Source: Rhizodiscina lignyota (lineage: Eukaryota > Ascomycota > Dothideomycetes > Aulographales > Rhizodiscinaceae). Taken from it: DNA of 64,000 nt. Of this stretch, positions 1,688-45,178 are shown one piece after another (positions within the stretch are counted from its first letter, which is position 1; each line of letters begins with the position of its first letter). Made by a program: the position numbers and the translations under genes. The notes beneath the pieces were generated by a model. That model made no database searches. It saw nothing but the letters and a program-made list of their open reading frames with translations, and had not been told where the DNA came from. Location: NCBI GenBank assembly GCA_010015805.1, contig ML978121.1, positions 2,976,001 to 3,040,000 on the forward strand, read 5' to 3'.

Positions 1688-2965
1688 CTACGTATAGGTC
1701 TTGTTGCCGCCCACAGTCTTGGAGCCGTCAAGGTCGGAGTCGACGCGAGGATCGACCTTGTTCATCATGTCTGAGGAGTGAGGACCCGCCGTATCTAAAG
1801 TAGGTAAGCAAAATTAGCACAGCTCTGAGTTTCATGTTTGCACGAGGGATAACATACTGGGCGCAGGGCCTGGAGCACCACTGCCGGTCACACCAGCACC
1901 GTGAGTACCAGCACCATGAGTACCGCTAGTGCCAAAGCCAGCATCACCGTATCCAGCGCCACCAGTAGTACCAGTCACACCTGAGTCGTAAGTGTTGGTG
2001 CCGGTCACGCCAGTGCCATGCGAATGAGTTCCGTGATGATGAGTTCCGAGACCAGCGTCGGCGGTCACATCATTGCCATATGTGTCGGTGACGCCTGCAC
2101 CACGAGTTGCGCCAGTTCCGAAGCCAGTAGCACCACCGGTGCTGTAGCCAGTAGTACCGGATGCGGCACCCAGGTTGCGAGAACCATCGCGGTCAGAATC
2201 GACACGAGGATCGGCCTTGTTTGCTGTGTGTACCGTCAGTAGCAAATTCAACCATTTTCATCGAGTGAATGACTTACCAAGGTTGCTGCTGTGAGGTCCC
2301 GCACCAGTCGACTGAGTGTTGCCCGTCAAGGTACCTCCGGTAGTCGTGCCTCCATAGCCAGCACCAGCACCATAGCCAGAACCAGCACCATAGCCAGAAC
2401 CAGCACCCAAGTTGCGAGAACCATCGCGGTCAGAGTCCACACGAGGATCGGCCTTATTTGCTGTGTGCACCGTCAGTAAGAAGATCATCCCTTTTCATCA
2501 GGTGAACGACTTACCAAGATTGCTGCTGTGAGGTCCCGCATTGGTCGACTGAGTGTTGCCAGTCAAGGTACCTCCGGTAGTCGTGCCTCCATAGCCAGCA
2601 CCGGCACCAGAACCAGCACCCGCGCCATAGCCAGAATTGCCAAGATTGTCACGGCCAGAATGGACACCAGCGCCATGGCCAGCAGCACCATAGCCAGCAG
2701 CACCGGTCGCACCACCCATGTTGCGAGAACCGTCGGCGTCAGAGTCAACGCGAGGATCAGCCTTGTTCACTGTAATGCCATCAGTTTGGGTCGAAATTGG
2801 GCTTCAAGACAATCACTTACGAAGGTTGTTGCCGTGAGGTCCGGCATTGGTCGACTGAGGATTGTCGGTCACAGTGCCTCCGGCCGTGGTAGTGGTGTTC
2901 TGGTGGTGTTCTGGATGCAACGCCTTATCGACGGCTTCCTTAGCCTTGTTGACGAGGCCAGACAT
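1688..2965 (-). CDS. Glycine-rich modular protein with repeated KADPRVDSD-type motifs (LEA/hydrophilin-like)
   Basis: Five exons on the minus strand: 2965..2821, 2769..2515, 2460..2278, 2223..1858, 1794..1688; 351 aa. All four introns are in phase 1. The N-terminus is MSGLVNKAKEAVDKAL. Exons 2-5 each open with a variant of NKADPRVDSDxDGSRN and all but the last middle ones end with an AGPHSSNL-like junction, with glycine, alanine and tyrosine-rich filler (YGAGAG, HGTG, TTGGTLTGN) between. The chain ends in NKTYT. The composition suggests a disordered, hydrophilic protein. Similar fungal proteins are annotated as LEA-like, cell-surface or stress proteins; function is unproven. There is no clear signal peptide. 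The last intron (1795..1857) is one copy of an introner-like family shared with two other genes here. The gene reads toward 920 and has more than 1.6 kb of upstream DNA. Confidence 0.8.
1795..1857 (-). repeat. Introner-like element, copy 1 (63-nt intron)
   Basis: Intron 4 of the glycine-rich gene. In transcript sense it begins GTATGTTATCCCTCGTGCAA and carries the branch region CTGTGCTAATTT. It matches introns at 15560..15623 and 44009..44070 over nearly its whole length, including both splice sites and the branch site, although the host genes are unrelated. Confidence 0.8.
1858..2769 (-). repeat. Tandem exon-plus-intron duplication inside the glycine-rich gene
   Basis: Three exons of exact codon multiples (255, 183 and 366 nt), all phase 1 at both ends, begin with nearly the same DPRVDSDxDGSRN coding block. 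The introns 2514..2461 and 2277..2224 are both 54 nt and clearly homologous: each starts GGTAAGTC(G/A)TTCAC and ends CTACTGACGGT(G/A)CACACAG or a close variant. Duplication therefore copied exon and intron together. Confidence 0.8.
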
Positions 2966-4621
2966 TATGATTGATGTGTGCGGTTGTGTACGTGAAGCTT
3001 GAGATGTGAGTGTGCAGCGGAAGTGTAGTGTTGAGTTCAGGGTTGCTTGAAGAGAGTTGTTGTAGTTGTAAGCATTGAGTAGAGAGGGAGAAGCTTAAGT
3101 ACTTCGAAGCCATGCAAGGCAAGAATGAGGAAACGGCGACGTCATTCCGTGTAACACCTGCGAAGGCAGGAACGACGTGAAGAGCAACACTTGAAACGAT
3201 GAAAGGGCAATGCAAACACGCATCTACCCTGGTTACGAATGCCGAAGATAGCCATCCTCAAGAGCTGGATTACCGCTTTGGGACGCGTCACTTGCACTTT
3301 CTTAAACCATTACGCAATATGTGCACTCTTGTGCATCAATTAGGCCAGATTCGTTCATAAGCTTTGGGCTGGAGCGTAGGGGTGTCCGACTCTAGCGGAT
3401 ACCTGCGCAAGTGTGAAGTCTTGGAGCGGTTGCGGTTAACTATCGTCATAGTGTGGTTGGTTTAAAATGTCTACGTCTACGATCGTATGGTACCGCACAA
3501 AACTGATGCGTAGAGTATTGCCAAGTGCTAAAGGTGGCTCTTGCCACAAATGCTTAGCAACGACGCAGTTGGTGAAAGAGAAGTCTCTTTCAACTAGTGA
3601 AATTTTTGGATGAAGCAATTGGGGCCCCTTTCATTCACGCTCTAGCTCGACACTTTAACTAGCCCTGGTTGCGTGCGCCTCCTGGAAGAACTTACTATAC
3701 GTTATCGACAGGAACTAAAAAGTGACGTTGTGGCTGCGTCTGTGGCGGTGCTGCGTCATCGCCAAGATGAACCAGAACAAGGGGTGGTGGAAAATCTATG
3801 AATTTGCCGGTCAGAGCTGGGTTTAATTGTCATAATAGCGCTCTCGGTCTCCTCGAAAACAAGATTAGTTCGTAGCTATTGATGAAGATCGTCGCAGTGT
3901 GCCGTGTGCTCTGGTACGTGAGGTAAGATCTGTTTGTCATGTGGTTTCCCGTCGACTACTCTAGCGCACCGCTGTTGTGATCGAGATCAGGCTGTTTGTC
4001 TTGGAGCGAGGTTTGAAACCCAACCGGCTTTCAGCAATCTGTAAACATGGAGACTGAGGAGCTGACTCCGAGGCCTCTTAGAGTTGATATTGTCTCAACC
4101 TCTCGAAAACGGATGTCCGACTTGAGAGGTTGAGATGAGAGTCTGACATGAAAGATATGGTCATCAATTTCTTGGGTTGCGCATTGTCGTCTCGTAATAA
4201 CTCCAAGCATGAAATGGTGATGAGAGGGATGACAATCCACCTGCTGAGCATTGAAGGTCGTTCTTCCTCCGAAGAGCACTTCCAACAGCCAGATGAATTG
4301 CACACTTGTCAATTGAAATTGGGGTTTTCCGTATGCTACAACACCTTCCACTACGTACAGCATTTTGAACGCCTTCCATGCCCTTTTCTATGGGATTTCG
4401 CGCGCGCCAAAGAAATATAACTACATCGTAGAATAGACAGGCTATGCGAAGAGGAGTGGAGTGTTTGCAGCAAAGGAGATGGCTGGACATTATACATAAG
4501 ATTCGCTTCCAACGAAACGGCAAATGGATCTCCAGCTAGATTTCGGTGCTTGGCGACGGAAGCGAGCGGGAAGGCTCGGGTGTGGAGAGGTTAGAGTTGG
4601 CGAAATCAACTACGTGTAGTT
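2966..4621. other. Intergenic region upstream of the glycine-rich gene and downstream of TUF1
   Basis: About 1.65 kb. The part next to 2965 should hold the promoter and 5' leader of the glycine-rich gene. Short open frames at 3436..3618 and 4031..4523 overlap on both strands with no protein features. I see no repeat or RNA gene. Confidence 0.5.
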
Positions 4622-6201
4622 TTAAGCAAGGACTCGCGTCACCAACCCAGTTGCAACGGTACGGCCGCCTTCGCGGATGTTGAAGCGCTGGCCAGGCTCC
4701 ATTGATAACGGCATCAATGTCTCGCAGACCATCTCGACATTGTCGCCCGGCATTACCATCTTCGCATCTGGATCTGGCGTGCCCTCTGGCCATGAGAGCA
4801 TGCATGATTCGTCTGTCATTCCGTTAATTATCATGGACGGCCCAAAGATCGAGCTTTACTTACCCGCAGTTCTGAGGTACATTTGAGGTCTATAGCCATT
4901 CTGGAAACCAGTGTGTCGGCCACCTTCCTCTTTACTTAGAACGTATAATGACGCCAAAAACTTCTTGTGTGCTTTCGCAGTTCCCGGTAGCGCTATGACC
5001 ATTCCTCTCTTCACATCCTCGCGCTTCACACCACGAAGCAGAAGACCCGACGCGTCACCAGCTCGGCTCTCGTCGCAACTCTTCTTAAACGTCTCGATAT
5101 CTGTGACTTTTGTCTTGATCGGCGCGTCATTCTTGCCCACAAGCTCAACTTCGGTATCCTTCTTCAATGCGCCACGTTCAACTCGGCCAGATGCTACAGT
5201 CCCACGACCGGAAATGGAGAAGACATCTTCGACTGACATCAAGAACGGCTTCTCCAAGTCTCGCTGCGGGGTAGGTATCCATTCGTCAACAGCCTTGAGC
5301 AGTTCGTCAATCTTTTCCACACCAATCTCGTTCCGGCGGCCCTCGAGGGCGCAAAGTGCGGATCCCATGATAATGGGCGTATCATCTCCTTCGAAGCCGT
5401 ATGAAGAGAGGAGCTCGCGCATCTCCATCTCGACGAGTTCCAACATCTCCTGGTCTTCAATTGCGTCCACCTTGTTGACGAAGACCACGATACGTTGGAC
5501 ACCGACTTGACGTGCCAGAAGTAAATGTTCCCGGGTTTGTGGCCTGTGTAAGTAGTTTGTTAGCTCTTCTTTTGTAATAATCGCCAAGGTCATCAAAACT
5601 CATTGTATCTAAGTGTCATACATTTGCCCATCGCTAGCCGCAACCACAATGATTGCACCATCCATTGTGGCCGCACCAGTAATCATGTTCTTGATGTAAT
5701 CTGCATGGCCGGGACAGTCAACGTGTGCATAATGTCGATTATCGGTCTGATATTCGATGTGCGCCGTCGAGATGGTGATACCACGCTTCCGCTCTTCGGG
5801 TGCTTTGTCGATGGCTCCGTACTCGAGGAACGTAGCCATTCCCTTTTCCGCTTGGCGTTTTGTAATTGCTGCTGTCAGAGTCGTCTTCGGCAAGTCAGTG
5901 CAAAGGCACAGAAAGGATGGGATAGGTCGCGTGAGGGGGAAATTACTTTGCCATGATCGACGTGCCCGATTGTTCCTTTGAGGATGTCAGTTTCGAGTCC
6001 AATTGCTCCAGCGGGACAGTAAAGCCTACCAATATTGACGTGTGGCTTGTTGCGCTCAAAGACAGTCGCATAGTTTCTCCATTGCGATGTGTACTGTGCT
6101 CCGCCCCTCGATCCGAGCGCACTCTGGAGCGGGTTCACTCCCTTTTGCTGCCGCAGTGCAGCTCTGGACGTTCGTAGGAAGGCTCTTGAAAAGGTCGACA
6201 T
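4622..6201 (-). CDS. TUF1: Elongation factor Tu, mitochondrial
   Basis: Five exons: 6201..6030, 5975..5947 (29 nt), 5884..5622, 5543..4864, 4812..4622; 444 aa. It delivers aminoacyl-tRNA to the mitochondrial ribosome in a GTP-dependent way. The first ~45 residues ([19 protein letters not shown]...) are arginine/serine-rich with few acids, a mitochondrial presequence, followed by the EF-Tu start KPHVNIG. GTPase motifs are intact: G1 GHVDHGKT about residues 61-68, RGITI switch I, DCPGHADY about 123-130, NKVD in exon 4. Domains 2 and 3 are complete, ending [15 protein letters not shown]. Introns 1 and 2 isolate the small exon carrying the P-loop. The start at 6201 (MSTF) is chosen; there is no further upstream in-frame ATG. 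It is divergent from the HIBCH gene across about 420 bp. Confidence 0.97.
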
Positions 6202-6620
6202 ATTGTACACAGCTCAACGAGAAGGCCAAAGCTGGAGGGAGGAGAAAGGCAACGGGAACGAAGGAAGAGAGCGGAGTGATGAAAATGTATATCTACAGCT
6301 CGGAGGTTGCGATTTTCTTAGCGCAGAAAAGGAACTCGCGAAATCACGTGCAGCTCCAAGCTTTCAGGAGCTCGAGCTTCAGCCCTACAGAGCTGCGGAG
6401 AAGCATTCCCTGCACTACCGATCCGACCGCTTGCATGTACATGTATTCTAACTTCTAGCTCTGATCCATTGTCCTTGTGCGGCGACCTCCTGTTAGCATT
6501 CTAGCAGAGTCTGTGGCTCGGACTTCCACGTTCGCTGACATCTTTCTTTGGAGCTCGTCAACATCCGAGGTCCAAGGTATCTTGACATAATCTTCACGGG
6601 CACACTATCCATTTCCATAC
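6202..6620. promoter_or_regulatory. Divergent promoter region of TUF1 and the HIBCH-type gene
   Basis: 419 bp between two divergent start codons, both for mitochondrial proteins, so shared regulation is possible. A CACGTG box occurs near 6345. No TATA box or other element is assigned with confidence. Confidence 0.4.
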
Positions 6621-8307
6621 ATGTCTTTAAGGGCGCCAATATTTCGCACAGCGACGTCGCTGAGTCGCTGTACGCGCCACCGACCGATCATCATGCCATT
6701 GAGAGCCAAAATAACCAATCCAGCCGTTGGCGGGGATAGGACGGTAATTGAGCCTCCGCAGTCGTGGAGAGTTATGCTAATGCTCCAGAGTAGCAGGCCA
6801 AACCAATCTCTACAGATGCGATGGTGGAGCAGATTGTAAAGGAGCAACCCGGTGATGAGCCAGACGATGTCATATTCGAGACGAAGTACGGCGTCCGAAC
6901 CATCGAACTGAACAGACCAAAGAAACTCAACTCTCTGAATGGCTCAATGGCCAGGAAGATCATTGCACGGTTAAAGGTACGTCTGACTAGACTGTGGGGA
7001 CTCTTTATATGAGTTGGATGGCTGACTTTACATTGTAGGAATGGGAGAAGTCTCAACTCGCAACCGCAGTCATCATCAAAGGCGCTGGCAGAGCTTTCTG
7101 TGCAGGCGGCGACGTCGCAGCTCTCGCAAAATGGGACGCCGAAGGCCCAGAAGGACAACAAAGATCAGCAGATTACTTCGCTCTCGAATACAAGCTCGAC
7201 CACCTAATTGCCTCGTACGAGAAACCTTACATCGCATTCATCGACGGTATCACGATGGGTGGAGGTGTGGGCCTTTCGACACACGCGCCATTTAGGATAG
7301 CGACAGAGAATACAGTCTTTGCAATGCCGGAGACCACAATTGGCTTCTTCCCGGATGTAGGAGCAAGCTTTTTCCTACCGCGAATGGATGGACAAATGGG
7401 CACATATCTCGCTCTCACATCGGAGCAGATGAAGGGCGTTGACGTATTGTACGTGGTCATCTTTATGCAGCCCTGCCATTCGGTTGGTGGGTATGTTGCT
7501 TTAACACTGACTTCTCACAGCTATCATGGCATCGCAACCCACTATATCCACTCATCCACACTCCCAGACCTTGAAGCCCGCCTCGCCGAACTTACCTTCA
7601 AAGACTACCTCTCCCTCCAAGAGCGCCACGCGGTCATCAACTCCACAATCGAAGAGTTCTGCACTGGTCTCCCCGCTCCTCGCGCGAACATCTCCGGCGC
7701 CCTTCGCCGCGCCGTAGACACCTGCTTCGCACCATCCAATCGTACACCGCCCGCCGTTTTGTCTGCGCTCAAGAACGCAGAGCAGAATGGTGAAACGGAC
7801 GAAATCAAGACATGGGCAAAGAAGACCATCGCAACTATAAACGAGCGGAGCCCGACCAGTGTCGCGGTTACGCTGCGTCAATTGCACACCAGCCGTGCGT
7901 GGAACATTGCGCAGACGTTCCAGCACGAGCATAACATTGCAGCACGTTTCATGGCGCATCCAGACTTCGTGACGGGCGTGACAGCGCGGCTCGTGGATCG
8001 CATCAAAACCCGCCCAGCGTGGAAGCCCAACACTCTTGCCGAGGTCACTGATGCGGAGGTCAATAGTTTCTTCGACAAGGAACCTAAGATGGAGCTGTTG
8101 AACAATAACGAATTGGCCACATATACAGAATATCCGCATGCGTGGATTGGGCTACCGAGGGAAGGCGAGATAGCGCAGATGATGAAGGACCAGCCGAATG
8201 CACAGAAGGCGGAAGTAGTAAAGTTCTTCGTCGACAGGAGTAGAGGAAAGCAGGGTGTAAAAGAGAAGGTTGAGGAAGTATACGATAGGGTGGCCGAAAC
8301 GAAATAA
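6621..8307 (+). CDS. 3-hydroxyisobutyryl-CoA hydrolase, mitochondrial (EHD3/HIBCH type)
   Basis: Four exons: 6621..6743, 6794..6976, 7039..7448, 7521..8307; 500 aa. It hydrolyses 3-hydroxyisobutyryl-CoA in valine catabolism, in the mitochondrion. The N-terminus (MSLRAPIFRTATSLSRCTRH) looks like a presequence. The crotonase fold is clear: GVRTIELNRPKKLNSLN, GAGRAFCAGGDV, DGITMGGGVGLS (oxyanion hole), MPETTIGFFPDVG and the HIBCH-specific C-terminal half. Intron 1 (6744..6793) is the least certain; it was chosen because it joins the presequence in frame to DAMVEQIVKEQPGDEPDDV and has a TGCTAAT branch site. Intron 3 (7449..7520) is 72 nt and has no in-frame stop, so the open frame runs through it. 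Removing it restores FYHGIATHYIHSS, as in the family. Confidence 0.93.
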
Positions 8308-8901
8308 ATGAAAAGAGACATATTGTGCAATATGTATTACTTGGTAGACATATAAACTGTTACCGCTGGCATAAAATCCCTACTGAAAGGGCATTAGTCT
8401 GTTCCAGAATGCTTGGTTAACATCTTACATGGTTGAAGTACGGCCATCATCGAACTTCTTCCCTTCAGGTGTCCCATGCCATTTCTGGCATCTCCCAGCT
8501 TCCTTACACCGCGCCTCAGCCAGGGAGTCTCATTCCAGCCTCAAAGTTAGTACCTCTGACCGAGATCCTGGAGCCATCCGACTAGGGGCTTTAAGCCACC
8601 TAGGTTAAGGGGGATCCGTCAGCGGAAAACGAGTCGACAAGGAGGTTCGAGGAGGACAAACCTGTAAGGCAGATGAAGTCAACCAGATGACCCGTGGACA
8701 TGCCTTATTCTTCAACTCAAGAGCTAACATGTCTGAAAGGCTGCTGGAATATGGTTTACACAGTGTTTGCAGATGCACTGCTCTTACGTGCACAATGTTT
8801 ATTGACGGAAGAGGATATTTTATGTATCACACCGGTCGCCCAACTCCTCTGTTCAATTTTACGCTTCTTAGCCCCCATCCAACATGAAAGCCAATCACTT
8901 T
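8308..8901. other. Intergenic, tail-to-tail spacer
   Basis: Lies between the 3' ends of the HIBCH-type gene and the F-box gene. Open frames at 8605..8887 show no protein features. I see no repeat or structured element. Confidence 0.5.
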
Positions 8902-10242
8902 TTAGTCATCATTGGCATCATCACCATCATAATAAAATTCAAATGCATATTTGGAAAGCCAGTACGTGTCGTCCTCCTCGTCATCCACCTCAGCTTCAGA
9001 TGCAACTTCAGAAAGGGAGCCCTCGCCTTCGCCCTCATCCTCGTCCTCGTCCTCGTCCTCATTGTTGCTCATCTCATATTTTAACAACAGATCAGTGGTA
9101 CTCTCTACGTCTGACTCTGTCATATGCCAGAGGTCGTGTTCACGATCTGTTTCATAACACTGCCGCACAGTGATGAATTTCAAGTTAAGCTTGTTGCGGA
9201 GATTACCAATAACCAGATCCCATGAACCGAAAATCTCGATTTGCGCGAGCTGGAGGTTTCGGAGCGTTCGGGCGAATAAACAGAGGAAGGCCTCGAGCTG
9301 AGCAGACTTGATCCATGCAATGGTTTTGATTCGAATTGTCTCAAGCGGCGGTAACTGCGCATCTTGTAGCTGCGAACATGCTTCCAATATCTCCCCAATT
9401 CGAGGGCAACCATCCCAAGAAGGTATCTTGAGGTTGATCTCCTTCAGTGAAGGCGTATGCGCCAGAAAGAGGGAGAGCTTCTGAGGATTTGGTGAATCTG
9501 AAATCTTCATATTAAGACTTAACGTCTTTAATGCGCCCAGGCCGCAACTCCCCGAACCAAACCGGATCATTGGGAGCTCGATATAAGGGATGGGCAGGTA
9601 AGAAAGGCAATTAGTACGTATGTGTCTCCAAGATTTTAGATGCACCTCTATGGCCAAGTCGTTCAGCTGGATGGAGCTTTCAGTCACAACATCAACCAGT
9701 TGTTGAATGATCATGCTGCCGACATATGTGAAAGCGTTAAGTTCGTCGGGTTGCGGTACAGAGAAGCAGAAGGTGTGCCGCCCAAGTGGGTGTCCAAGCC
9801 CACGCTCGTGGTGGAGCTGTGTGAAGCGTATGGAATGACAGTTCTTGAGCCTCCTCAGAGCGGAATCAAGACCGGATCGAATCAGAGAAGATTCCCTCTG
9901 AACGAAGTTGTCCAGGATGTGCCATTGCCTCCAATAGTTTGCCTTTCTTGTGCTCGTTGCCTGGTCTCCAGAATCATCGTCCATTATGTACCACGCGACA
10001 TTGATAGACAACGCGCGCACGGCGTTCGCGAATCGCGGATGGTTTGAGATTTGGTCCAGCCGTTGGAGTGACGGTTTGCTTATGATAAGTTCAACGTGCG
10101 CAAAATTCTTCGCAAATCGGTGGAACGACTTGTCCCGCAATTGCCGGGATGTGAGTCGGAAAGCACGCTGATGGGGTATCGAAAGATGAGAGAAGATGTT
10201 CTCGGTGATTTCCTCCGGAAGCGACTCAAGGGTGGTCGCCAT
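8902..10242 (-). CDS. F-box protein with an acidic C-terminal tail
   Basis: Single exon, 446 aa from the ATG at 10242. The F-box is at the start: LPEEITENIFSHLSIPHQRAF, about residues 7-27. F-box proteins recruit substrates to SCF (Skp1-cullin) ubiquitin ligases. The middle contains leucine-spaced segments (LKTLSLNMKIS, LKEINLKIPSW, LETIRIKTIAW) like the irregular leucine-rich repeats of fungal F-box proteins. The last ~55 residues are strongly acidic (a run of ED pairs near residue 395, then EEDD and DGDDANDD). The frame stays open upstream to 10398, which would add 52 residues rich in S, R and L. I prefer 10242 because the F-box normally begins within ten residues of the start and the extension lies in a duplicated leader segment. 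Substrate unknown. Confidence 0.82.
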   Translation of the reverse strand: MATTLESLPEEITENIFSHLSIPHQRAFRLTSRQLRDKSFHRFAKNFAHVELIISKPSLQRLDQISNHPRFANAVRALSINVAWYIMDDDSGDQATSTRKANYWRQWHILDNFVQRESSLIRSGLDSALRRLKNCHSIRFTQLHHERGLGHPLGRHTFCFSVPQPDELNAFTYVGSMIIQQLVDVVTESSIQLNDLAIEVHLKSWRHIRTNCLSYLPIPYIELPMIRFGSGSCGLGALKTLSLNMKISDSPNPQKLSLFLAHTPSLKEINLKIPSWDGCPRIGEILEACSQLQDAQLPPLETIRIKTIAWIKSAQLEAFLCLFARTLRNLQLAQIEIFGSWDLVIGNLRNKLNLKFITVRQCYETDREHDLWHMTESDVESTTDLLLKYEMSNNEDEDEDEDEGEGEGSLSEVASEAEVDDEEDDTYWLSKYAFEFYYDGDDANDD

Positions 10243-11197
10243 AGTCGATATGGAACTTGTCAAGCACGAACAACGAAGGCTCGAAGGCTGTTCTGGTTGA
10301 GCTGTTGTAAGAGAGAACAATCTACGAGAGAGAGAAATGCTAATACTTATACGCCTCTCTGGAGCTATGAGACTAGCAGCGCAGCGGAAGGCGTTCAAAA
10401 AATGTGCTTCACCTACTGACAGAATTGAAACTTTCGTGTCCGATGGCTCTCAGATATACGAGTTATCGCTTATGTGACCTTGAGAGTCTCGGTTATCCTA
10501 ATCGGTATCGCGGTTTGCGCGTAAGGTGAAGACGGTGGAGCTAGTCAAGCGCGAACAACGAAGGCGCAGAAGGTGTTTGTTCGAGCTGATTGTAAGAGAG
10601 AACAATCTACGGGAGAGAAAGAAAGCTACCTGTTGTACCCTCTGGAGCTATGACGCCAGCGGCGCCGCGGAAGGTGTATAAAATGGTCCAACACCCCTGG
10701 TGGGGTTCGTGTGATGTGAGCGCGTGTTGCGTAATAGTGGATGGGAGTGAACGCGACTGGTTGGCCGCAAAGGGATAGAATGTTGTCAAGACGCAAGTGG
10801 GTTGCTTGCAGAGGGGAGGAAAAGAGGAAGGTTTGGAAGTGAAGTATTTATCACATCCGCGGCAATGACGCGGTGACACAATAGAGTAAACATAAGGCGA
10901 CATCGGACCGCCAAGAGTACTCATTTGCATCAACACTTATTTTGCCCATTCATTTAACGTTAATGCGAAACACTTAATTCCTAAACTCGACTGTGATTAC
11001 AGTTTTAGTTACAGTTGTTGGCCAATGCCCAATTCCTGGATTCCAAATCATATGAGCCTAATATGCTGGCCGGGGGTATGATATTGAAGGGAAAGGCGAG
11101 CCCCTAGATAAAAGAGAGTTACTGACATTGAACTTCGGTAACCGGAGGGTAGCACAATATCTGAGCAAGTCTTTCTTTCTCACTCAATTACCCATTC
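10243..11197. other. Intergenic region upstream of the F-box gene, with a duplicated leader
   Basis: Holds the F-box promoter/leader, its diverged duplicate (10247..10402 and 10531..10688), and the 3' flank of the OsmC gene. The open frame at 10607..10936 has no recognisable features. Confidence 0.5.
10247..10688. repeat. Direct repeat of about 155 bp in the F-box leader (10247..10402 and 10531..10688)
   Basis: Both copies contain GCGAACAACGAAGG or CACGAACAACGAAGG, then GTAAGAGAGAACAATCTACG, CTCTGGAGCTATGA and GCGGAAGG in the same order and spacing. Identity is roughly 75-80 percent by eye. They are separated by about 130 bp. Copy one is the immediate 5' leader of the F-box gene. Confidence 0.75.
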
Positions 11198-14828: not shown

Positions 14829-16883
14829 ATGCTCTCAGTTGATTTCATGATGCATTTAATCAACCTCTTTTGCCTCTACGCGTCGGGTTTCGCGTCTGTA
14901 CAGGCGCTCTCTGGCCCAATAAGTAGTTCTGATGGCTCAATAGTACGAAGGCAGTCTTCGGGAGATCCATACAAAATTTACACTATCGATCAGCCAGTAT
15001 GTCCTCTACTATTCCAATTTCCTTCGAAATTTAACAATTATGTACAGATTGATCATTTCCCGGACAGCCCCAGATATGAGCCGCACACGAAGGCGACGTT
15101 CAAGCAGAGGTACATCTTTGACAAGACTTACTACAAGCCGGGCGGACCTGTGTATCTCTACATAGGGGGCGAAGTAAATCTTGAGAGTCGTCTAGAGAAC
15201 CTTGAAAGTGGCATCATCAAAATCCTCATGCAAGCTACGGATGGCCTCGGAATTATACTGGAGAACCGGTATTATGGAGAAAGCTACCCTTTCGACACCA
15301 GCACGACAGACCAGCTGGCGTACCTGACTACGGAGCAAACCATTGCGGATAATGCTTACTTCGCGCAGCATGTCACCCTCCCCGGCGTCGAGGGTAACTT
15401 GAGTGCACCAGGGACTCCTTGGATTCTTTACGGGGGCTCTTTGGCTGGGGCTCAGACTGCATTCTCAGTCAAGACGTATGGAGGTAGCGGCACTGGCTTA
15501 CTTTGGGGAGGCATTGCTGCCAGTGGTGTGATACACTCACAGCATGCTTATCCTGAATGGTATGTTATCCCGTGGTGCAAACGTTAAGCCCAGAACTGTG
15601 CTAATTTGGTTCATGTAATTTAGGGTACGTTTCATACCATGCAATTGAGGAACGTACAAGACGACTAACTTGTTCCGGTTGATTGAAGTATAACCCCATC
15701 CAAAAATTTGCGGCTGGGGATTTTAGTATCAGCATCAATGCCATCATCGATAAGATGGACTATCTGGTGGCGCAGAAGAATACGAAAGCGATACAGGAAT
15801 TGAAAGAGATATTCGGCCTTGGAGCATTGAAAGATATTAGAGACTTTGCGATGACTATCGCGTTTCCGCTTGGAGGTCCGTCGTGTACCGTAACCAATGG
15901 CTGAACTAATTGCCGCAGGCCCAATGAACTACCCTACCAGCACGTGGCAAGAGCTGAACTGGTCTCCTCTCTACGGTTCAGACGATTTCTGGGATTTCAG
16001 CAACAACGTCACCCAATTGAACCCTCCTGCAAACAATACCGCCGTCGACCATCAGCTTGCCAAATACACCCATGGAGAGCCTTGGCTGAACTTGGGCAAC
16101 TACGCCGCCTACGTCAAGCGGGTTCTGCTTCCACTGTGCCCCAGCGGAGATTATAACGACGTGACTTGCTTCGGCACGCAAAACCAGACCTTCTATGCCG
16201 AAGTGGCCAACGGCGGATCCCGCAGTTACTTGTATACCACATGTACCGAGATGGGCGTATACCAGGTTGCTCAGCCGTCAGGCCCATCCCTAATCTCCCG
16301 TGTGCTACAGGTTGATTACACTCAGCAGTGGTGTGACTGGGCATTCCCACCAGGGAAATACAACTCCATTCCGAAAAACGGTGCGTACCCTGCTCGTGCA
16401 TATGCTAGTAGTGTACACTCATCAAGTTTTAGGGCCAAATGTGACCTGGTACAACCACTATGGAGACTTCAACTTCAAAGCCGACCGCCTGGCATTTATT
16501 GATGGTGAGTGCGAAACCGCACGTCTTATGACACGGAGGCTTCTTATCAAATCGAACTAATACACGGAACAGGAGAACAAGACGTTTGGAGGGACATTTG
16601 TTACCATTCAAGGGCAGCTCCGAACCCACGGTATTCGAGCGTCGATGGCCTGCACCCAGAGCATCTGATTGCGGGAGCTGGGCATCATTGGGACAGCTAT
16701 GGAATCAACAACATCAGTGCTGAACCTCAGTTCATCCGCAATGCCCACTTATGGGAGATAAGGGTCGTTGACAGATTCTTGGAAATGTGGAGTAAGTAGT
16801 TTCGAGAACTTTAGTTATTGTCAAGGCGACCTGAGGCTAATACCGGCATAGAGAACTCCAAATCGAAGCGGGATGAGCTGTAG
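14829..16883 (+). CDS. Secretory serine peptidase, family S28 (Pro-Xaa carboxypeptidase/DPP2-like), C-terminal RDEL
   Basis: Eight exons: 14829..14996, 15048..15559, 15624 (one nucleotide), 15689..15875, 15919..16380, 16433..16504, 16573..16791, 16852..16883; 550 aa. The N-terminus is a signal peptide (MMHLINLFCLYASGFASVQA). Splicing intron 1 gives TIDQPIDHFPDSPRYEPH, the S28 start. The nucleophile motif is GGSLAGAQ (family GGSYGGML), the acid lies in IDGEQDVWRD and the histidine in GAGHHWDSYG. Many N-glycosylation sites (NNVT, NQT, NVT) fit secretion. The single-nucleotide exon is needed to read PEWYNP across two adjacent introns. The last intron (16792..16851; GTAAGT, GGCTAAT branch) leads to an exon coding NSKSKRDEL, an ER-retrieval type end; if retained, translation stops at EMWSK. 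The first intron has no in-frame stop. Confidence 0.87.
15560..15623 (+). repeat. Introner-like element, copy 2 (64-nt intron)
   Basis: Begins GTATGTTATCCCGTGGTGCA, contains CTGTGCTAATTT and ends AATTTAG. It matches copy 1 at about 80 percent over the first 48 nt. It lies exactly 1 nt upstream of the donor of a second intron (15625..15688, gtacgt...gactaac...gaag), giving a one-nucleotide exon or a stwintron-like arrangement. Confidence 0.82.
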
Positions 16884-36114: not shown

Positions 36115-36436
36115 GAGATGAGATCCTTGAAGATCTCAGTGATGATGATTGCATGATGAATGGAACGGCAGCACTCGCTCCGCTGGGAGCCTGCAGAAGC
36201 GTCGATGAGGTTTCCGATGCTTTGATGCCGATGTTTCAATGGGGACACTGAGTTTCATGTTTTGATGGAACTCCACATTCCAGCGTAAATGATGCTGGGA
36301 AATGGGCCGTGCGACACGTTCGCCTAATGTACATAGGGGATTGTACATAACGATATACCCTGGGAGGATGCATCGCTGATGCAACTGGAATGAAGCAATC
36401 ATTGCTGACAAACGTCAAAGAGTTTCCGATGCTACA
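36115..36436. other. Intergenic, tail-to-tail spacer
   Basis: Lies between the 3' ends of the receptor and VMA22-like genes. I see nothing of note in it. Confidence 0.5.
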
Positions 36437-37117: not shown

Positions 37118-37311
37118 ATTGGCGGCTGAATGCTTGCAGTTGAATTTTGACTAGTGCACTACCGAGAAGGTGATATTGGATTGTAAAGGGGAAGGTTGAC
37201 ATCTCCCCCTGGCCATAAGGTCTTCCTCCTCGGAACATGCCGAAGTGGTGATCGTGAAGCTCACTTCCACAGACGACGATAGACAAGACTTTCAAGCCAA
37301 CCCCGGGCACC

Positions 37312-39123
37312 ATGTACAGGATCCGCTGCAGAAGATTCAATTCAAAACCGTTCAAGCACCCACGGCGGCCTCCGGACCGAATTGCTACAGCCAATACCCG
37401 GTTCTTCGCGCGAAACGCCCAGCTACTCCTCGTCTCGCACCACTCACCACGACCTCAACCTTCCTTCCTCGCTCCCCTATCTTCTGGATCCCGCACTGGT
37501 CGATGGCAGCCTGCAAGATGGCTGACAACAGAGAAGAAAGAGGAGTACAAGGACCAGTTCCGGAGGGCCATAAGGTTCAATATCATCGCATATTCAATAA
37601 TCGGCTTCGGCCTGGTAATGACATATGCCATTATTCAAGACGTGCTGGAGGCAGAGAAGCCGACGCCGCAAGAATGGACTTTCTTTAGCAGAACGAAGCT
37701 GCGCAGCGCATATGGCAATCTGACGCAGGACGCGAATAGCATGGGCTTCACGGATTTTGCGCTAGTCGGCTCGTTGTATAGAAAACTTCTGGAGCGGCTG
37801 GAGGATCCAAATATCGACGGTGCCGGATTGGTTGAGCAGGAAGAAGGTGGAATTGATACACAAGGTGCTGGCAGGGCCGGGTTTGACATTACCAGCAAGA
37901 GCGATGCCTGGCGGGCTGGCTATTTCGAGTGTTTGATGGGTTGCGCGAAAGCTGCGGAGCATCTTGATGGCCAGGTCGTAATCGTCAAATCGAACAAGGT
38001 TCTGCCAGCGCATTACGTACCGGGGCCGTCTAATCCCAATCCGAAGCCAATGCCGCCATGGCGAGGTTCATCTCCGCCCCATGAAGACGAAGTTGCGCCT
38101 GCATCGCTGCCGCCAGAGCATTTCTATGTGCAAATCCTTACGACGAAAGGCTTCACGACGAAGGAAAGGATGGACGCAGCCATAGCTTACGGAGAGTGGC
38201 TTGACTTCAAGCAACTCTACGAGGCCGCTGAAGAGGCGTACAGGTGGGCTCTCGACATTGCCACCGAAAACATACCAAATGCTTCCACTATCATTAACCC
38301 TTTAACTGGCATTTTGCGCTCTGGATCTGATTCTGTATCTACAAACATTCTGACTGCAACGACCGCTCTGGCCACACATTATGCCCTGGAGTCTAGAGCG
38401 TCGGATGCCCTGCCCATCTATCTTTCTGTACTACGTGCGCGACGAAATGCTCCCGAAGGACTCCCGCTTCCAAACCTGGCGGCTCAAGATGGAAATACCT
38501 ACGACAATCGCCCAGCTACCGATATCGAGGCCATCGGGCGCTGGTTCAGGTACTTCGCGTCACTCTTCAAGGAGAAGCCTTTCCCCATCCCCGCAACAAC
38601 TGGCGACGAGCCGTTTATGAGGCGATCAGGCGATGCCGACGGATGCGAAGATGCCAAGATCATGGCATACATCGGAGAGATTCTATTCGCATCCGCGCCG
38701 AGTGAAAAGGCCCAGAACGACGCCATCAGATGGACTCGAGACGCTGTCGAAATCTCAGACCGCGGTCTGCAGAGCACCAGGCTTCAGAAAGCAGAGAGGC
38801 TCAAATGCTTGGATTGTAAATCGGTGGCGCTGGATAACTGGTTTACCATGGCGAAACGGATGTCGGAGGCCGAGCGCCAGCGACGACTTGCGGGGACGAC
38901 TCAGCGTAAGGGCTGGTTTGAGTTTGCGTCCGCTCAACCAGCAACGCCTGAAAGTGCAATCGAAGAACAGGGTGGTGGGAGGAGAGGCCCGTGGCGGTGT
39001 CAAGAAGAGAAGGATGCGGAGTTGAAGTTCCAGCAGCATTTGAGGCAGGGGATGCGGGAGAAGCTGACGCAGACGCCTTTCACTGCGGTATGGAGCAAGA
39101 TTGGATTCCTCATGCAGATATAA
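37312..39123 (+). CDS. Mitochondrial TPR protein, Mgr3-like
   Basis: Single exon, 603 aa. The first ~75 residues (MYRIRCRRFNSKPFKHPRRPP...) are arginine-rich with no acids, a mitochondrial presequence. A single transmembrane helix follows (IIAYSIIGFGLVMTYAIIQ, about residues 92-110). The rest is soluble and built from TPR-like helices, e.g. YGEWLDFKQLYEAAEEAYRWALDIA and the segment around LATHYALESRASDALPIYLSVL. This layout matches fungal Mgr3, an adaptor of the inner-membrane i-AAA protease (Yme1) that delivers substrates. Assignment rests on architecture and general resemblance, so another inner-membrane TPR protein is possible. The start at 37312 is the first in-frame ATG. Confidence 0.68.
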   Translation: MYRIRCRRFNSKPFKHPRRPPDRIATANTRFFARNAQLLLVSHHSPRPQPSFLAPLSSGSRTGRWQPARWLTTEKKEEYKDQFRRAIRFNIIAYSIIGFGLVMTYAIIQDVLEAEKPTPQEWTFFSRTKLRSAYGNLTQDANSMGFTDFALVGSLYRKLLERLEDPNIDGAGLVEQEEGGIDTQGAGRAGFDITSKSDAWRAGYFECLMGCAKAAEHLDGQVVIVKSNKVLPAHYVPGPSNPNPKPMPPWRGSSPPHEDEVAPASLPPEHFYVQILTTKGFTTKERMDAAIAYGEWLDFKQLYEAAEEAYRWALDIATENIPNASTIINPLTGILRSGSDSVSTNILTATTALATHYALESRASDALPIYLSVLRARRNAPEGLPLPNLAAQDGNTYDNRPATDIEAIGRWFRYFASLFKEKPFPIPATTGDEPFMRRSGDADGCEDAKIMAYIGEILFASAPSEKAQNDAIRWTRDAVEISDRGLQSTRLQKAERLKCLDCKSVALDNWFTMAKRMSEAERQRRLAGTTQRKGWFEFASAQPATPESAIEEQGGGRRGPWRCQEEKDAELKFQQHLRQGMREKLTQTPFTAVWSKIGFLMQI

Positions 39124-39722
39124 GACGAACTGTTGGATCACTCAAACTCCCCTGTTCCAGTTTCTCCTGTTCGACTGTGGCTCTACAAGCTTTTAGCTGT
39201 ACCATCATCATGTTAGATAGCAGTTTTCTCAAAGATACCACTAGCTTTGCAAGATCATATCATATCAATTATGGAGGTGTGTTTTTGGTGCCAATCACAT
39301 TTGCTCAAAGGGTCAATATAGCACCTGCCATAGTGTATAGAAAGGGCTTCTGACCACACTTTTGACATGATGAGGCTGATTTATAGTGACAAAGATTACT
39401 TCGGCCACTTTATTTGACAGATTCGTAAGTCGCAACGCCTACGTAAGTGCGAGCATCTTTTGCTCTTCAAGGTAAACGGGACTATCTCAGAAAGCTTAGT
39501 TTTACGTTCTCTGGAGTGTATATAATAGCAACATACCGCTGAAAACATTATATACTTTATTGGCTATCATATGTAGCTGTGTTGTGTGACTGTGTCTTGA
39601 AAGCTGTTGCCACCTTTTTCACGCTCGAGCTCGTGTGCCCAGGCTGGAGAATTTCAAGTCCTTGATCTTTTTTCCCAATTTCTAGGAATGCCCATCCACT
39701 TTCGGTCAATGCAATATGAAGC
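39124..39722. other. Intergenic, tail-to-tail spacer
   Basis: About 600 bp between the 3' ends of the Mgr3-like and aldolase genes, fairly AT-rich. Nothing recognised. Confidence 0.5.
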
Positions 39723-40853
39723 TCAATAACCACCATTTTGGCCAGCATCATGCGTCTCACCATCACGTACACCACTCGCTTCTTCCACAATCGTAACACC
39801 AGCACTCGCACCGATCCTAGTGGCACCGGCCGCAGCCATCTTCTGCATGTCGTTAAACGATCTGATCCCTCCGCTCGCTTTGATCTGCATGGGTTCATCC
39901 GCCGTCTCCTTTGCTGCCGCTATTGCCACGCTCTTCATGAGCCTGACATCTTCTACAGTCGCACCGCGTTCGCAGAAGCCTGTAGAAGTCTTGATGAAGT
40001 CGAAGCCTGCGTAGTGTGCCAGTACTGACGCCGCGATAATCTCATCTGTCGATAGTTGGGATGTCTCGAGAATGAGCTTGAGCGTCGTAGGACGCGAGGC
40101 AACATACCGGAGCTTGGAGAGGTCACTGAAGGTTGAGACGTAATCTGGCAGTTTCTCCAAAAGCCCAGAAGATGACGTGGTACGCGCTCTATGCAGATAT
40201 GAGCGGTTCAGCACGGCGTCCGCTTCCGTTGTTCCAGCCTCGATGGCAGCGGCTAGTTCTCTGTGTGTCGATTTAGCGCCATGAACTGCTAGCAGGCGTG
40301 GAGATTGAAGCAAATATCTGAATGAAAGAATAACGTGGGACAGGTATGGAAACGCACTTCTCTTTCGCCTCCCAGTCGGCCGTTCCTTCGGGAAAATCAA
40401 TCACACACGCAATGCCTACCGAAGTACCGGAGAGCTTTTTAACAGCACGTGCAACATAATTCAATCGCACACAGACAGTCTGAGGAGATAACAAACAGTT
40501 AGCAGTGCCACGTCTCCTCCATTTGCACTCTTTCGAGGGGCTGAAGTGGACCTGTGTAATAGGATAGAGGGAAGGGTAGATACTCTCGAAAAAATCCTTT
40601 TATGAGACCTAGAAGATACAAATGAACTGAAATGTTCTGTACGACTTACTTTGAAGTTGTATTTCTTCGCTTCGTCGCAAAGCTTGTCGATTTGTTCAGG
40701 TTCGGCGTCGGGCTTCAGCAGCGTGTGGTCGATGAATGCTGCGGCCTCGGCGGCACTCATAGATGCTAAAGGGGCATCTTTCGGCTCTATTAGTTTTGAT
40801 TCAATTGATTTGATCAAGCTGTGCCACTCTTCGTTCGTCAGATTTTGCATCAT
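39723..40853 (-). CDS. Deoxyribose-phosphate aldolase (DeoC type)
   Basis: Three exons: 40853..40650, 40479..40358, 40260..39723; 287 aa. It splits 2-deoxyribose 5-phosphate into glyceraldehyde 3-phosphate and acetaldehyde, in nucleoside catabolism. Family blocks: FIDHTLLKPDAEPEQIDKLC (about residues 40-59), YNFKTVCVRLNYV across intron 1, VGIACVIDFPEG, the Schiff-base lysine in FDFIKTSTGF, and IKASGGIRSFNDMQKM plus RIGASAGV for phosphate binding. Intron 1 is 170 nt, longer than most here. The ATG at 40853 (MMQNLTNEEW) is preferred; the frame is open to 41015 but that extension is atypical. The insert after AAAIEAGTTEADAVLNRSYL is longer than in bacterial DeoC, as usual in fungi. Divergent from the BTB gene. 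Confidence 0.92.
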
Positions 40854-41165
40854 GGTGAGTGTCACGCCGATGGAGATGTTGACTAGTGAACCTGGAAGCG
40901 TCGAAGTGAAACTCGACACTTTCCGAGAGTGGGAAAGCGCTTCTTTCGCGCCAATATCAACGGGCCAACGGCTAATTACTACTTTATATTGACACCTGAG
41001 CATGAACAAACTCAACTGACACGAAAATAACCCACTCTACACTCTCCGAGACCTCTCTTGTATATAGCTAGCTTTGGGGGCAATCTTCGGCTTATTTAGT
41101 ACTGTACGATATCTGTGACTTATTCCCTAACGAACTCATTCCCTCCTCTGACACATCACAGCATA
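40854..41165. promoter_or_regulatory. Divergent promoter region of the aldolase and BTB genes
   Basis: 312 bp between divergent starts. A TATATAG sequence near 41060 could act as a TATA element for the BTB gene. Nothing else assigned. Confidence 0.35.
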
Positions 41166-41962
41166 ATGTCTGACGACGCGGTCAAAGAAAAACAATCTAC
41201 GGTCTCGGATGACCCGAGCGGGGACACTCCAAGGCTGGAGACATTTTCCGAGTGAGTATTTTCTCACTTCGAATATCCCCTGGTCAATATATTAACACGC
41301 TTCAGCTATCTAACATCACCCATCGTTACTATCACAGTCGGAAGCCCCTCGCAATCCTTCTTCCTCCACGTGGGCTCCTCACTAAAGAGTCCAACAAGAT
41401 TCTCAAGGAGCTAAACGGCCCTTTCAAAGAGGCAAAGGAACTGAAGATCGATCTGTCCGAAGAAGACAGCCTGCTTTTTGCTCATTTCGTAAAATATCTC
41501 TACAGTGAGAAGCCGTGCGAAGCCCTTCCGACTGTACAAAACGGACACGTTTCGACGTATGTCTTGTTGGCACGGCTGTACGCTATGGGTGAGCGCTTGT
41601 GGGCTCCGAAATTCAAAGACGCTATTCTGCGCAACTTCACGGCTACATTTGACGTGAACACGGCAATCCCCGAGCACGACCTGTGTGAGCTTCTAAAGAT
41701 CGCGTGCGAGGAGATCACCGAGCGGGTACCTGAAGATGATGAGATGCGCAGGAACATCTTCTGGTTCGCTTCTTGTAGACTTACCAATCTTCAACGCTAC
41801 CCGGACTTCACTGAGGTTATGCTGGAAACGTATCCAGAGCTGGGACGGCAACTTGCTCTGCGCGCTGGGAATCCTGCCTATGCGGCTCAGCCTCCTCGGC
41901 CTAAAGGAGCTTTGGAATCTCGATTCAGGAACGAGTTTCTTTCGGTGGCCAAGTCTCGATAA
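41166..41962 (+). CDS. BTB/POZ-domain protein with a probable one-base frameshift
   Basis: Exon 1 41166..41251 and exon 2 from 41306 (54-nt intron, GTGAGT...CTTCAG). After splicing, the frame reads FSDYLTSPIVTITVGSPSQSFFLHVG, the start of a BTB domain. It then runs out of register near 41370-41375. The rest of the domain, LLTKESNKILKELNGPFKEAKELKIDL and FAHFVKYLYSEKP, lies in the next frame and runs to the stop at 41962. Intact, the protein would be about 245 aa, like many fungal BTB proteins that bind cullin-3 or unknown partners. No intron of acceptable size repairs the shift without deleting conserved residues. Either the gene is broken in this strain, or one base is missing from the assembly. 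Confidence 0.65.
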
Positions 41963-42761
41963 TCTTCTGGCAACGACTAGATGCTCTATGGACCGCGGAA
42001 TCAATTGATGGTTAAAAGGCTGAGCTGAAAGCGTATTGCCAGTACAAGGCTGCAATAGACAGAGTGAGAGGATTCTTCTGCTGGTCAAATGAGGACTGGA
42101 ACAGGATAGTGAAAGCAAGCATAGATACTTTTTGATCAAGATAGAGCATGTCAATTAAAGCCGTGCAATTTACATAAACATTAGCTGAAGTTCTGTTGAA
42201 ATGAACTTTCAGGTACGCTCTCATCTGCTTGATGAGCAGATGACTACTTTCTGCTACGCCGTCTGCACCTTCATATCCAGTCGTCGAGATGAGTACTTTG
42301 TCATCCTCACACTGCTCGGGGCTTTCTCCACTCCACCTCAACGTCGCCGCAACGGCGCCACCAAACATGGCCGACGTTAAGGAAATCCATAGTTACGCTT
42401 TATTCTGTGCGTGTGATGCCGTTGGAATATTTTTAATGTCGTATCTGCCAATTGAAGTCTATCTATTTCCAATTCTCGTGGAGTTCAGTTAAGGGGAGCC
42501 CACCATGGGACAAATATCACGACTGTGGCTCAACAGCCATTGGGCTAAACACAGCCGCTAACTCTATATGGCAAGGCGAATACCTCTCTCGTTGTTTCCA
42601 ACGTTCCTGCGTGGATCCATTGGTCGAATCGAGGCCGTGCACTCACTAGCGCATCATCCCTTCTGTGGATAGTCAGCATAAAAGATTCGAATGGCGGCGT
42701 ACACCCTCTTCCTCCTCTACATCTCATCAAGTACTACTATTAGCATAAAATCATCTTCACC
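41963..42761. other. Intergenic region upstream of the phospholipase A2 gene
   Basis: About 800 bp with a short perfect hairpin (CATCTGCT/AGCAGATG near 42223-42243). Open frames here lack protein features. The PLA2 promoter is expected close to 42761. Confidence 0.45.
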
Positions 42762-43352
42762 ATGATGCCATCAGTACGTCTTATCGTTTTGATGTTGAGT
42801 TCTTTGATCCCGCACGTCGCAGGACTCCCTCAGCCAAGCCCAAAAATTACCGTGGAAGTGGTGAATAAGAATGACGGCAGTCATGGGAGATAGTAAGTCT
42901 ATGAGTGTTTGATACAGACACAACACTCATAGGGATACAGTACTCTAGAGGACACGGACCCAGCTGCGAGCGTCCAGTGCACCCCGTCATTGGTTGACGA
43001 CTACGTTTTCCACTTGTCGCTTAAAGAGTTCGAAGCCAAGGCGGCTGCCAAAGATCCTGGAAGTTGCGTCTGGGACACCAATCTATGCACCTCTTCTCCG
43101 GACGCGCCATTTGGAATGCCGTTCTATAAAGCGTGTAGACATCACGACTTCGGATACCGTAATTTCCAGAACCAGGGTCGATTGGATGGGGGCATGAGAA
43201 AAAGGGTAGATGGTCGATTCAAAGAGGACATGGACGTTATTTGCTCTGAGTATAAGGGGATGCAAAAATTCCGCTGCAAAACGGGAAAGTGGATTTACTG
43301 GAGTGCGATCCGGATGTTTGGCTGGACGAAGGTGAAAAGGCGATCCAATTGA
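42762..43352 (+). CDS. Secreted phospholipase A2, fungal/bacterial (group XIV) type
   Basis: Two exons, 42762..42892 and 42941..43352, 48-nt intron; 180 aa. It hydrolyses the sn-2 ester of phospholipids outside the cell. The N-terminus (MMPSVRLIVLMLSSLIPHVAG) is a signal peptide. The catalytic motif CRHHDFGYRN lies near residue 115, giving the His-Asp pair; GSCVWDTNLCTSSPDAPFG before it and CSEYKG plus FRCKTG after it supply the cysteines that form the two disulphides. The propeptide (about residues 22-50) is short. Acceptor choice at 42940 (ATACAG) gives GRYTLEDTDPAASVQC in frame; the nearer CATAG would leave the frame inconsistent. An adjacent in-frame ATG at 42765 is equivalent. Secreted PLA2s of this type occur in plant-associated and soil fungi. 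Confidence 0.9.
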
Positions 43353-43459
43353 GATCATTTGCTTCAAGGGAATCTTTAGAGTAATACTGATGGAGTACTG
43401 TGTAATGGAACTTCAATAGGACATCTAAACCGAGAAATGCAATAACTCCTCGAAGCCTT

Positions 43460-45178
43460 TTACGCAATGTTTGAGTCCTCCTTTTGTGCCATTTTCAGAC
43501 GGAGACCTACGATACCCACACAAATAGCGCTGACTACGAACATACCAGCGCTCACGAAAAGTGGAAGACCCACCAGGACGTCGATGCGTGTATCCAAGCC
43601 CCATGCTAGTACTTTTGGGAACAAGATGCTTGCTGCCAGCTTTCCGAAGATGCTCGCCATACTGAGAGTCGCCATGACCCGCGCTACCTTTGACCTCTCC
43701 ACCAAGGAGACTATGTAGGCCTGTGTCGCTGGCGGCAGCCCCTCACCGAAGAGATACACGATTACACCTGTGATGAATACAGTGCTCGTATTACTGAATC
43801 CAATGCATAGAGAACCAAGCGTAAGGAGGACGCTGCTGCAAACCATGATGACAAACTGGGCGAGCTGTGACCCAAGCCACGCGGCAGCTGCACGGTTCAA
43901 TGCGGGTAACATAATGGAGAAGTAGATGAGCATGAGGAAGCCCTCCATGCTAACAACCGAGGCAGCTTGCGGAAATGTCCAATGCAGCTTGATGACAGGA
44001 TATTGAACCTATTCATGTGTAGTAAATTAGCACGGCTCTGGTCTCATGTGTGCAGTGCAGGATAACATACCAGAGCGTACCAGTCGATGGCTTTGATTCC
44101 GGTCGCGGCAAAGCAGATGGAGAGAGCTAGAAGGAGGATATTGACAACGCCAACACCGGATACTGCACCAGCGAAACGCTCATAAGCGCCATGCATCCAT
44201 GCGGAGATGAAGGACCTTTTCCTATTTCCTTCCTGCCTGGTTGTGTCCTGCTCGACCGTGGCGTTGCTACGAGCGGCTGTGGCTGATTGTTTCGCTCCTT
44301 GGCTTTCATGCACCGTCTCAGGGAACATGAAAATAGTGATTAGAGCAGTTAGAATTGCGAGGGCAAGGCTAGCGAAGAGATTAATATGAGACGTTCCGCC
44401 TTTACCATCCAGATTCATTATCCATCCTCCGATGGATGGACAAAAAGTCTGTGCAAAGTATTGCATAGATGTAGTCAAGAAGAACAGAGAAGCTCGTTCC
44501 GTCGCAGAGGGCATAACGTCTGAATATGAGGCGAAGAGCATGGCCAAACCGATATCATAATTGCCACCAATTAATCCAGGCGTACCAGAGAGATAGAGTG
44601 TCCATATAGGTACTCTCGGGAATCCAAGATCTGTTCATCTGTCAGCGATTGGCTGGGCCATGGTTGTCGTGAAGCTTACAGAGTACGACCCATACTATGC
44701 AAGTGATGCAAACATTGACCTTGTGCAGAATCAGCACTGGCTTTCTCCCCCATCGGTCTGCTACCCATCCTAGCGGGATTGCTCCAATCATGGCGGAAAG
44801 CATCCGGACGAACATTATCAATCCCGCGCTTTTCGCTAGCTGCTTCTGAATGCTGTCGTCTTTGCACAACGTTTCAGGAATGTGCTTTCCAAGGTCTGCA
44901 AGGGGCGAGTGCCTTGCAGCGTAAAACTCGTAACAATACATAGCTTCGATTGCACGCATCGTTGCAACTTGCTTGACGAAGTACTCCGCTTCATTGATGA
45001 AGATGATGGTACAACCTAGCAAAGGTACCCATCGGTATTTTGGGGAAATGGTTGTGAATCCGAGCCATCTGTAACCTTTGATGGAATCTGCTTTTGATTC
45101 CAAGGATAAGAGACTGTCTGTAGAGTTCTTCCGGGCCAAGAGAGGTTCCTGCTCGCCATTGTTGCTCACGGGCTCCAT
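43460..45178 (-). CDS. Major facilitator superfamily transporter
   Basis: Three exons: 45178..44680, 44630..44071, 44008..43460; 535 aa. A 12-helix MFS protein. The cytosolic N-terminus (MEPVSNNGEQEPLLARK) has a dileucine-like EQEPLL. The MFS signature between TM2 and TM3 is LGWVADRWGRKPVL. Further membrane blocks include GTPGLIGGNYDIGLAMLFA, a large central loop rich in S, T, N (about residues 250-290), and LYFxG-type stretches in the last six helices (VFITGVIVYLFGEGLPPATQAYIVSL). The protein ends RLKMAQKEDSNIA. It resembles fungal drug/H+ or organic-solute carriers of the tetracycline-like type; the substrate is unknown. The second intron (44009..44070) is an introner-like element. An upstream in-frame extension to 45292 exists but looks non-coding. 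Confidence 0.87.
44009..44070 (-). repeat. Introner-like element, copy 3 (62-nt intron)
   Basis: Intron 2 of the MFS gene. In transcript sense it begins GTATGTTATCCTGCACTGCA and carries CAGAGCCGTGCTAATTT, then ends ATGAATAG. It matches copy 1 over about 47 nt with small indels. Splicing joins WYAL to VQYPVIKLHW in phase 0. Confidence 0.8.

Follow-up and report, generated by a model that had tools for sequence, protein, structure and literature searches.

Introduction

The origin of new spliceosomal introns is still open. In ascomycetes, introners form an outlier class that lacks the marks of transposons, having neither terminal inverted repeats (TIRs) nor target-site duplications (TSDs), and that was earlier read as RNA-based, according to Gozashti et al. 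2022 (PMC9860276). The pipeline described there recognizes families of at least four copies with similarity near both intron ends, and the example given for family 1 of Alternaria alternata is 64 nt long by its coordinates. Here we analyse a 64-kb stretch of Rhizodiscina lignyota DNA (contig ML978121.1, positions 2,976,001 to 3,040,000; hereafter the window, with position 1 as its first letter), in which three introns of unrelated genes resemble one another. Both the gene content and the style of the introns point to a filamentous fungus. In the reading that we consider probable, all three derive from a single introner-type spliceosomal intron, which multiplied in the genome and was inserted scarlessly into exons, and the copy in a gene for an S28 serine peptidase left behind an exon of a single nucleotide.

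Several other fungal systems come close. The introner-like elements of Dothideomycetes (Collemare 2015, PMC4457414) are described as long beside regular introns of 50-55 bp, and elements that lie 1, 8 and 3 nt from the intron positions of other species are argued there to be parallel gains. Predicted stable structure or inverted repeats are given as a mark of fungal introner-like elements in PMC8469720. Sequence-similar introns that are seamlessly integrated are known from Hypoxylaceae and their relatives (PMC8469720, PMC12403724); many of the Hypoxylaceae type carry terminal inverted repeats of 45-55 nt (PMC8469720), and in a [D1,2] stwintron an internal intron splits the donor of the external one between G1 and U2 (PMC12403724).

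The nearest parallel to the single-nucleotide exon is that of Fusarium CYP621A, which is supported by transcripts and conserved in many species (PMC12940212). Its authors present it as the first such exon in a fungal gene and propose that it originated when a lost base was rescued by a cryptic AGGGT exon; the available part of their account makes no mention of introners. Among the literature matches listed, judged by titles and the starts of abstracts, there was no paper linking introner insertion to one-nucleotide exons.

Three related introns in unrelated genes

The gene model of the window, made by dynamic programming, is crude: it predicts 84 introns, some of which are certainly wrong. The three related introns are copy 1 (1795..1857, minus strand; 63 nt, phase 1), copy 2 (15560..15623, plus strand; 64 nt, phase 2) and copy 3 (44009..44070, minus strand; 62 nt, phase 0). 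The host of copy 1 (1387..2965, minus strand) is crudely modelled with five introns and encodes a 404-residue glycine-rich repeat protein for which no Pfam family was found. Copy 2 lies in the S28 peptidase gene (14850..16799, plus strand; 530 residues, six introns). Copy 3 is found in the gene of a major-facilitator (MFS) transporter of 535 residues (43460..45178, minus strand; introns 44631-44679 and 44009-44070), the exact spliced protein of which matches MFS_1 with 58.7 bits; a PDB search at E 1, with a query peptide joined by eye and approximate at the joins, returned no relatives. An earlier note on this DNA had called the hosts unrelated, and this holds: when the S28 peptidase, the MFS transporter and the glycine-rich protein are compared by blastp, no mutual match is better than E 1.3.

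Each copy itself carries the donor GTATGT, the branch site GTGCTAAT and a TAG acceptor, and would therefore be removable from the transcript with the host protein unchanged. If retained, each copy brings in-frame stops, and splicing restores the frame (in the case of copy 2, jointly with the next intron); the spliced reading is continuous in the three hosts, as GPAPNTAGPHSSD, HAYPEWYNPIQ and AIDWYALVQYPVI. All three introns are thus in sense to their hosts, as had been claimed, but this orientation is little evidence, since only sense copies can be spliced.

The alignment of the three copies has 64 columns, 40 of them invariant. Copies 1, 2 and 3 do not differ in GTATGTTATCC, which lies at the donor, or in GTGCTAATTT, which lies at the branch site, and the most invariant stretches adjoin these two sites. 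When up to one mismatch is allowed, GTATGTTATCC has three matches in the window, all exact (shuffle mean 0.46; three matches were reached in 2 of 100 shuffles). With up to three mismatches CAGANCNGTGCTAATTT has five (mean in shuffles 1.57): those in the family introns are exact, and the other two have three mismatches each. Over alignment columns 1-48 the pair identities are 41/47, 39/46 and 36/47 (77-87%), which agrees with the earlier estimate of about 80% over the first 48 nt, donor and branch site included; the coordinates, strands, lengths and motifs that had been reported are exact. Whole-intron identities are 51/63, 45/61 and 44/62 (71-81%), so that the introns are clearly related, as the earlier note had it, while its term 'near-identical' is overstated.

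Common descent and the borders of the similarity

Sixty-nine of the 84 predicted introns are at most 100 nt long, and all 2,346 pairs of these were aligned, with 30 shuffled intron sets as a control. Scores of 74, 58 and 50 were obtained for the family pairs. Among the non-family pairs, one reaches 68 as a result of a tandem exon duplication (see below) and all others score 28 or less, whereas the best score across the shuffled sets is 32. In a leave-one-out test, in which a profile was made from two copies and the third was sought, the missing copy was regained at E 4.3e-8, 1.2e-9 and 5.1e-7. Chance similarity is ruled out by the pair scores, which lie far above those of other introns and of the shuffled sets, and by these profile E-values. 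The three introns share common descent, and their similarity is confined to the intron.

The borders of the similarity were examined by blastn with introns extended by 20 exon bases on each side (listing threshold E 0.01). For copies 1 and 2 the match spans exactly the intron (E 6e-11); for copies 1 and 3 it covers intron bases 1-47 and ends shortly beyond the branch site (E 3e-8); in both listed family pairs the match starts at intron base 1. The pair of copies 2 and 3 is missing from the list at this threshold, yet nhmmer links it at E 8e-4 and 9e-4. The remaining pairs listed are introns of the glycine-rich repeat gene, neighbouring introns with overlapping flanks and one minus-strand pair (E 0.002).

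Similar introns may also result from duplication of the surrounding genes or exons, and a case of this occurs in the same window. Within the glycine-rich gene, a tandem duplication of 237 bp (2157-2630; 88% identity) holds introns 2224-2277 and 2461-2514, which are near-identical; here the blastn match extends over the 20-base flanks, and the exon duplication is the source of the likeness. For the family itself we reject such an origin, the probability of which is negligible, because the likeness begins exactly where the intron does and the hosts are unrelated; the phases of the three copies (1, 2 and 0) differ as well.

A further reading takes the shared sequence for a functional RNA or a splicing signal that selection has kept in unrelated introns. 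The parts adjoining the donor and branch site are the most invariant, which speaks for it. We nevertheless hold it to be very improbable: Rfam gives no match at the gathering score over the whole window and none at E 1 in the region 15500-15700, the only region searched at that level, and the fold is neither stable nor clearly covarying, the consensus fold of the three copies being weak (-1.63 kcal/mol, with both-sided changes in 1 of 12 pairs). Moreover, the 66 other predicted introns of at most 100 nt show no convincing relation to the shared sequence.

No further copies were found in the window when the three-copy profile was run on both strands (next match E 1.8), and none was detected in intergenic or antisense positions. 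The best of the 66 other short introns, at 51969-52018, reaches z 3.1, and none is a convincing relative of the family. The predicted 64-nt intron 58519-58582 has z 2.5 against the family, which is unconvincing given 66 tests; its scores against copies 1, 2 and 3 were matched by 0, 92 and 17 of 500 shuffles, and it weakly resembles copy 1, intron 15625-15688 and intron 6977-7038. Two exact DNA patterns found no copies in viral_contigs, where no relative of the window's antiporter was found either. In genome_contigs, one exact pattern had a single match, in a Desulfitobacterium metagenome-assembled genome (MAG); the remainder of the element is absent there, and we take the match as chance. Four motif strings sought as text in the literature yielded no title on fungal introns among the matches listed.

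A candidate one-nucleotide exon in the S28 peptidase gene

The six introns of the S28 gene, all on the plus strand, are 14997-15047, 15560-15623, 15625-15688, 15883-15940, 16381-16432 and 16505-16572. Copy 2 ends at 15623, a single G stands at 15624 and the next donor, GTACGT, starts at 15625. The proposed exon (15624..15624, plus strand) is this G, which completes a TGG codon and stands in the context AG|G|GT. The neighbouring intron (15625..15688, plus strand; 64 nt) runs from GTACGT through GACTAAC to GAAG and is taken as the older, resident one; the earlier note makes no mention of it. Its kinship to the family is not clear, its scores against copies 1, 2 and 3 being matched by 139, 25 and 22 of 500 shuffles.

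From 54 candidate introns in this region, 22 open solutions with one or two introns keep the frame. With the score of a pair defined as that of the weaker of its two introns, the best solution is 15560-15623 together with 15625-15688, at 13.9 against 7.3 for the runner-up. Removal of both introns as one 129-nt piece causes a frame shift and a downstream stop. With the G at 15624 kept and all six introns spliced, the reading extends from the ATG at 14850 to the stop at 16799 and gives 530 residues, of which residues 63-499 align with Aspergillus niger prolyl endoprotease (8b57) at E 4.7e-39 and without a gap at the junction. One S28 intron of 58 nt, 15883-15940, had been missed by the gene finder; once it and the C-terminal exons are included, the match to the A. 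niger enzyme rises from 113.8 to 137.6 bits. The single G is needed for both the frame and the protein alignment. Because the gene finder makes 3-nt exons that are probably false, we draw the case for the exon only from the splice enumeration, the 530-residue reading and the alignment.

Tentatively, and at somewhat less than even confidence, we propose on these grounds that an introner landed 1 nt upstream of a resident intron and so produced a working one-nucleotide exon, with the two flanking introns spliced in order. The ancestral gene would have read CCTGAATGG|GTACGT, with the resident intron alone. Insertion of the introner between TG and G of the tryptophan codon, one base upstream of the resident donor, would have left the G at 15624 as an exon of its own that keeps the peptidase in frame. 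The introner would have to be removed first, which would rebuild a normal exon end before the resident donor, and the resident intron would follow.

The competing explanation is that the gene has no such exon: the two introns would belong to a single larger one, or the gene would be damaged. Frame-keeping solutions with a single intron do exist (only 15528-15688 and 15564-15688), and the false tiny exons made by the gene finder speak for this explanation too. However, the donors of these two solutions are poor (GTGATA and GTTATC), their scores (7.3 and 5.2) fall short of 13.9, and splicing by them either removes 11 residues or adds one; the gene is otherwise intact, and the family copy brings its own conserved donor and acceptor. 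We therefore regard this explanation as unlikely.

Like the exon of Fusarium CYP621A (PMC12940212), the candidate exon of the S28 gene is a single G in the context AG|G|GT, lies between two short introns and is essential for the frame. Unlike in Fusarium, one of the introns flanking the S28 exon belongs to a repeated family, and the S28 exon is predicted from sequence. The locus also resembles the stwintrons of Hypoxylaceae (PMC8469720, PMC12403724) in that similar introns are seamlessly integrated and that the S28 pair, too, needs two consecutive reactions; it differs from a [D1,2] stwintron in that copy 2 lies one base outside the resident donor and is without an inverted repeat. While the near-positions described in PMC4457414 span species, the S28 gene by itself holds two introns next to each other.

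Kind, age and origin of the family

In the broad sense of Gozashti et al. (PMC9860276), the family is of a known kind, the ascomycete introners: its host genes are unrelated, the similarity is tied to the splice sites (at both ends only between copies 1 and 2), and neither TIRs nor clear TSDs are seen. Copy 2 has the same length, 64 nt, as the A. alternata family-1 example. In contrast to the families of that study, copy 3 is weak at its 3' end. Set against published families by their descriptions only, the family is apparently undescribed.

With the introner-like elements of Dothideomycetes (Collemare 2015, PMC4457414) it shares related introns in unrelated genes and insertion at or near other introns. 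The copies are 62-64 nt long, compared with a median of 57 nt for the window's predicted introns of at most 100 nt, whereas the elements of PMC4457414 are called long. Families of lower identity are taken in that paper as no longer multiplying, and the family here, at 71-81% identity, looks aged rather than active. Unlike Dothideomycete introner-like elements, the three introns have no stable fold and no inverted repeat. We do not claim strict membership among fungal introner-like elements, of which stable structure or inverted repeats, hundreds of near-identical copies and absence from orthologous sites in relatives are marks; loss of the structure or the repeats through decay could explain the difference in fold.

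No inverted repeats were found in the copies, their self-complementarity being reached by 494, 242 and 100 of 500 shuffles, and no clear TSD was found, the longest word common to both ends being 3, 4 and 3 nt in copies 1, 2 and 3. These results bear on the possibility of a non-autonomous DNA transposon with splice sites, inserted by cut and paste and afterwards spliced out of the transcript. Outside ascomycetes this is the usual kind of introner; PMC9860276 gives TSDs, TIRs or both for 59.2% of 130 judgeable families, and copy 2 does have the same word at both ends. Yet inverted ends are absent from all copies, the end words of copies 1 and 3 are only 3 nt long, the ascomycete families are without TIRs or TSDs in that same source, and the three-copy profile detected no intergenic or antisense copy in the window. 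A transposon of this type is quite unlikely.

Alternatively, an ordinary intron may occasionally have been copied by break repair or gene conversion, in a handful of events and with no multiplying element. Only three copies are known, their identity is moderate, and the 3' part is weakly conserved, all of which would suit such a history. A density of three per 64 kb would be high for rare accidents, though it was because of these copies that the window was flagged; such a density might mean many in a whole genome, but for the same reason no genome-wide copy number can be estimated from it. On balance we find occasional copying improbable.

Under multiplication of an introner-type intron, the reading we prefer, movement as intron copies by an RNA route is most likely. 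Either a spliced intron would have been returned by reverse splicing, or it would have been ligated at a DNA break and then converted to DNA.

Several observations weigh against the preferred account. Only three copies are seen, where PMC9860276 requires four per family. That study also asks for similarity that comes within ten bases (intron side) or five bases (exon side) of each border, and among the three pairs this is seen for copies 1 and 2 alone. The 13 columns before the acceptor are weakly conserved (7/13, 4/13 and 6/13 identical by pair), with 3/13 columns invariant there against 19/32 in the body, a marginal difference (Fisher p 0.047). No stable RNA fold was found in the three copies (z against shuffles 0.24, 0.91 and 0.01), and copy 2 begins and ends with stretches that share the 4-nt word GGTA, which a transposition model could claim. 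The intron calls are predictions from splice signals, frame and homology, the splice scores for the S28 region come from a hand-set matrix, and the gene finder also yielded several 3-nt exons that are probably false. The order of arrival at the S28 locus, with 15625-15688 in place before copy 2, is likewise inferred.

Other repeats in the window

A long imperfect inverted repeat lies at 48458-48738, with 52-nt arms (48513-48564 and 48670-48721) that are 90% complementary; additional outer matching arms were read by eye, and the whole looks like the remnant of a small inverted-repeat transposon. A diverged repeat, spaced at 283-285 bp, occupies 10251-10683 (repeat families D8, D9 and D12).

Implications for intron gain

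The family can be read base by base, and one of its copies stands beside another intron, which makes it open to a direct test of intron gain. Of its features, the single-nucleotide exon most deserves further study. If true, the single-G exon of the S28 gene would add a fungal case to that of Fusarium CYP621A (PMC12940212), and the locus suggests introner insertion as a second route to one-nucleotide exons. New introners gained next to older introns would in that case be a general cause of exons one nucleotide long. They would also account for apparent intron sliding by one nucleotide, because an intron one base off the old position remains if the resident one is lost later. The S28 pair, if the reading is correct, would be a physical intermediate for such one-nucleotide 'intron sliding'.

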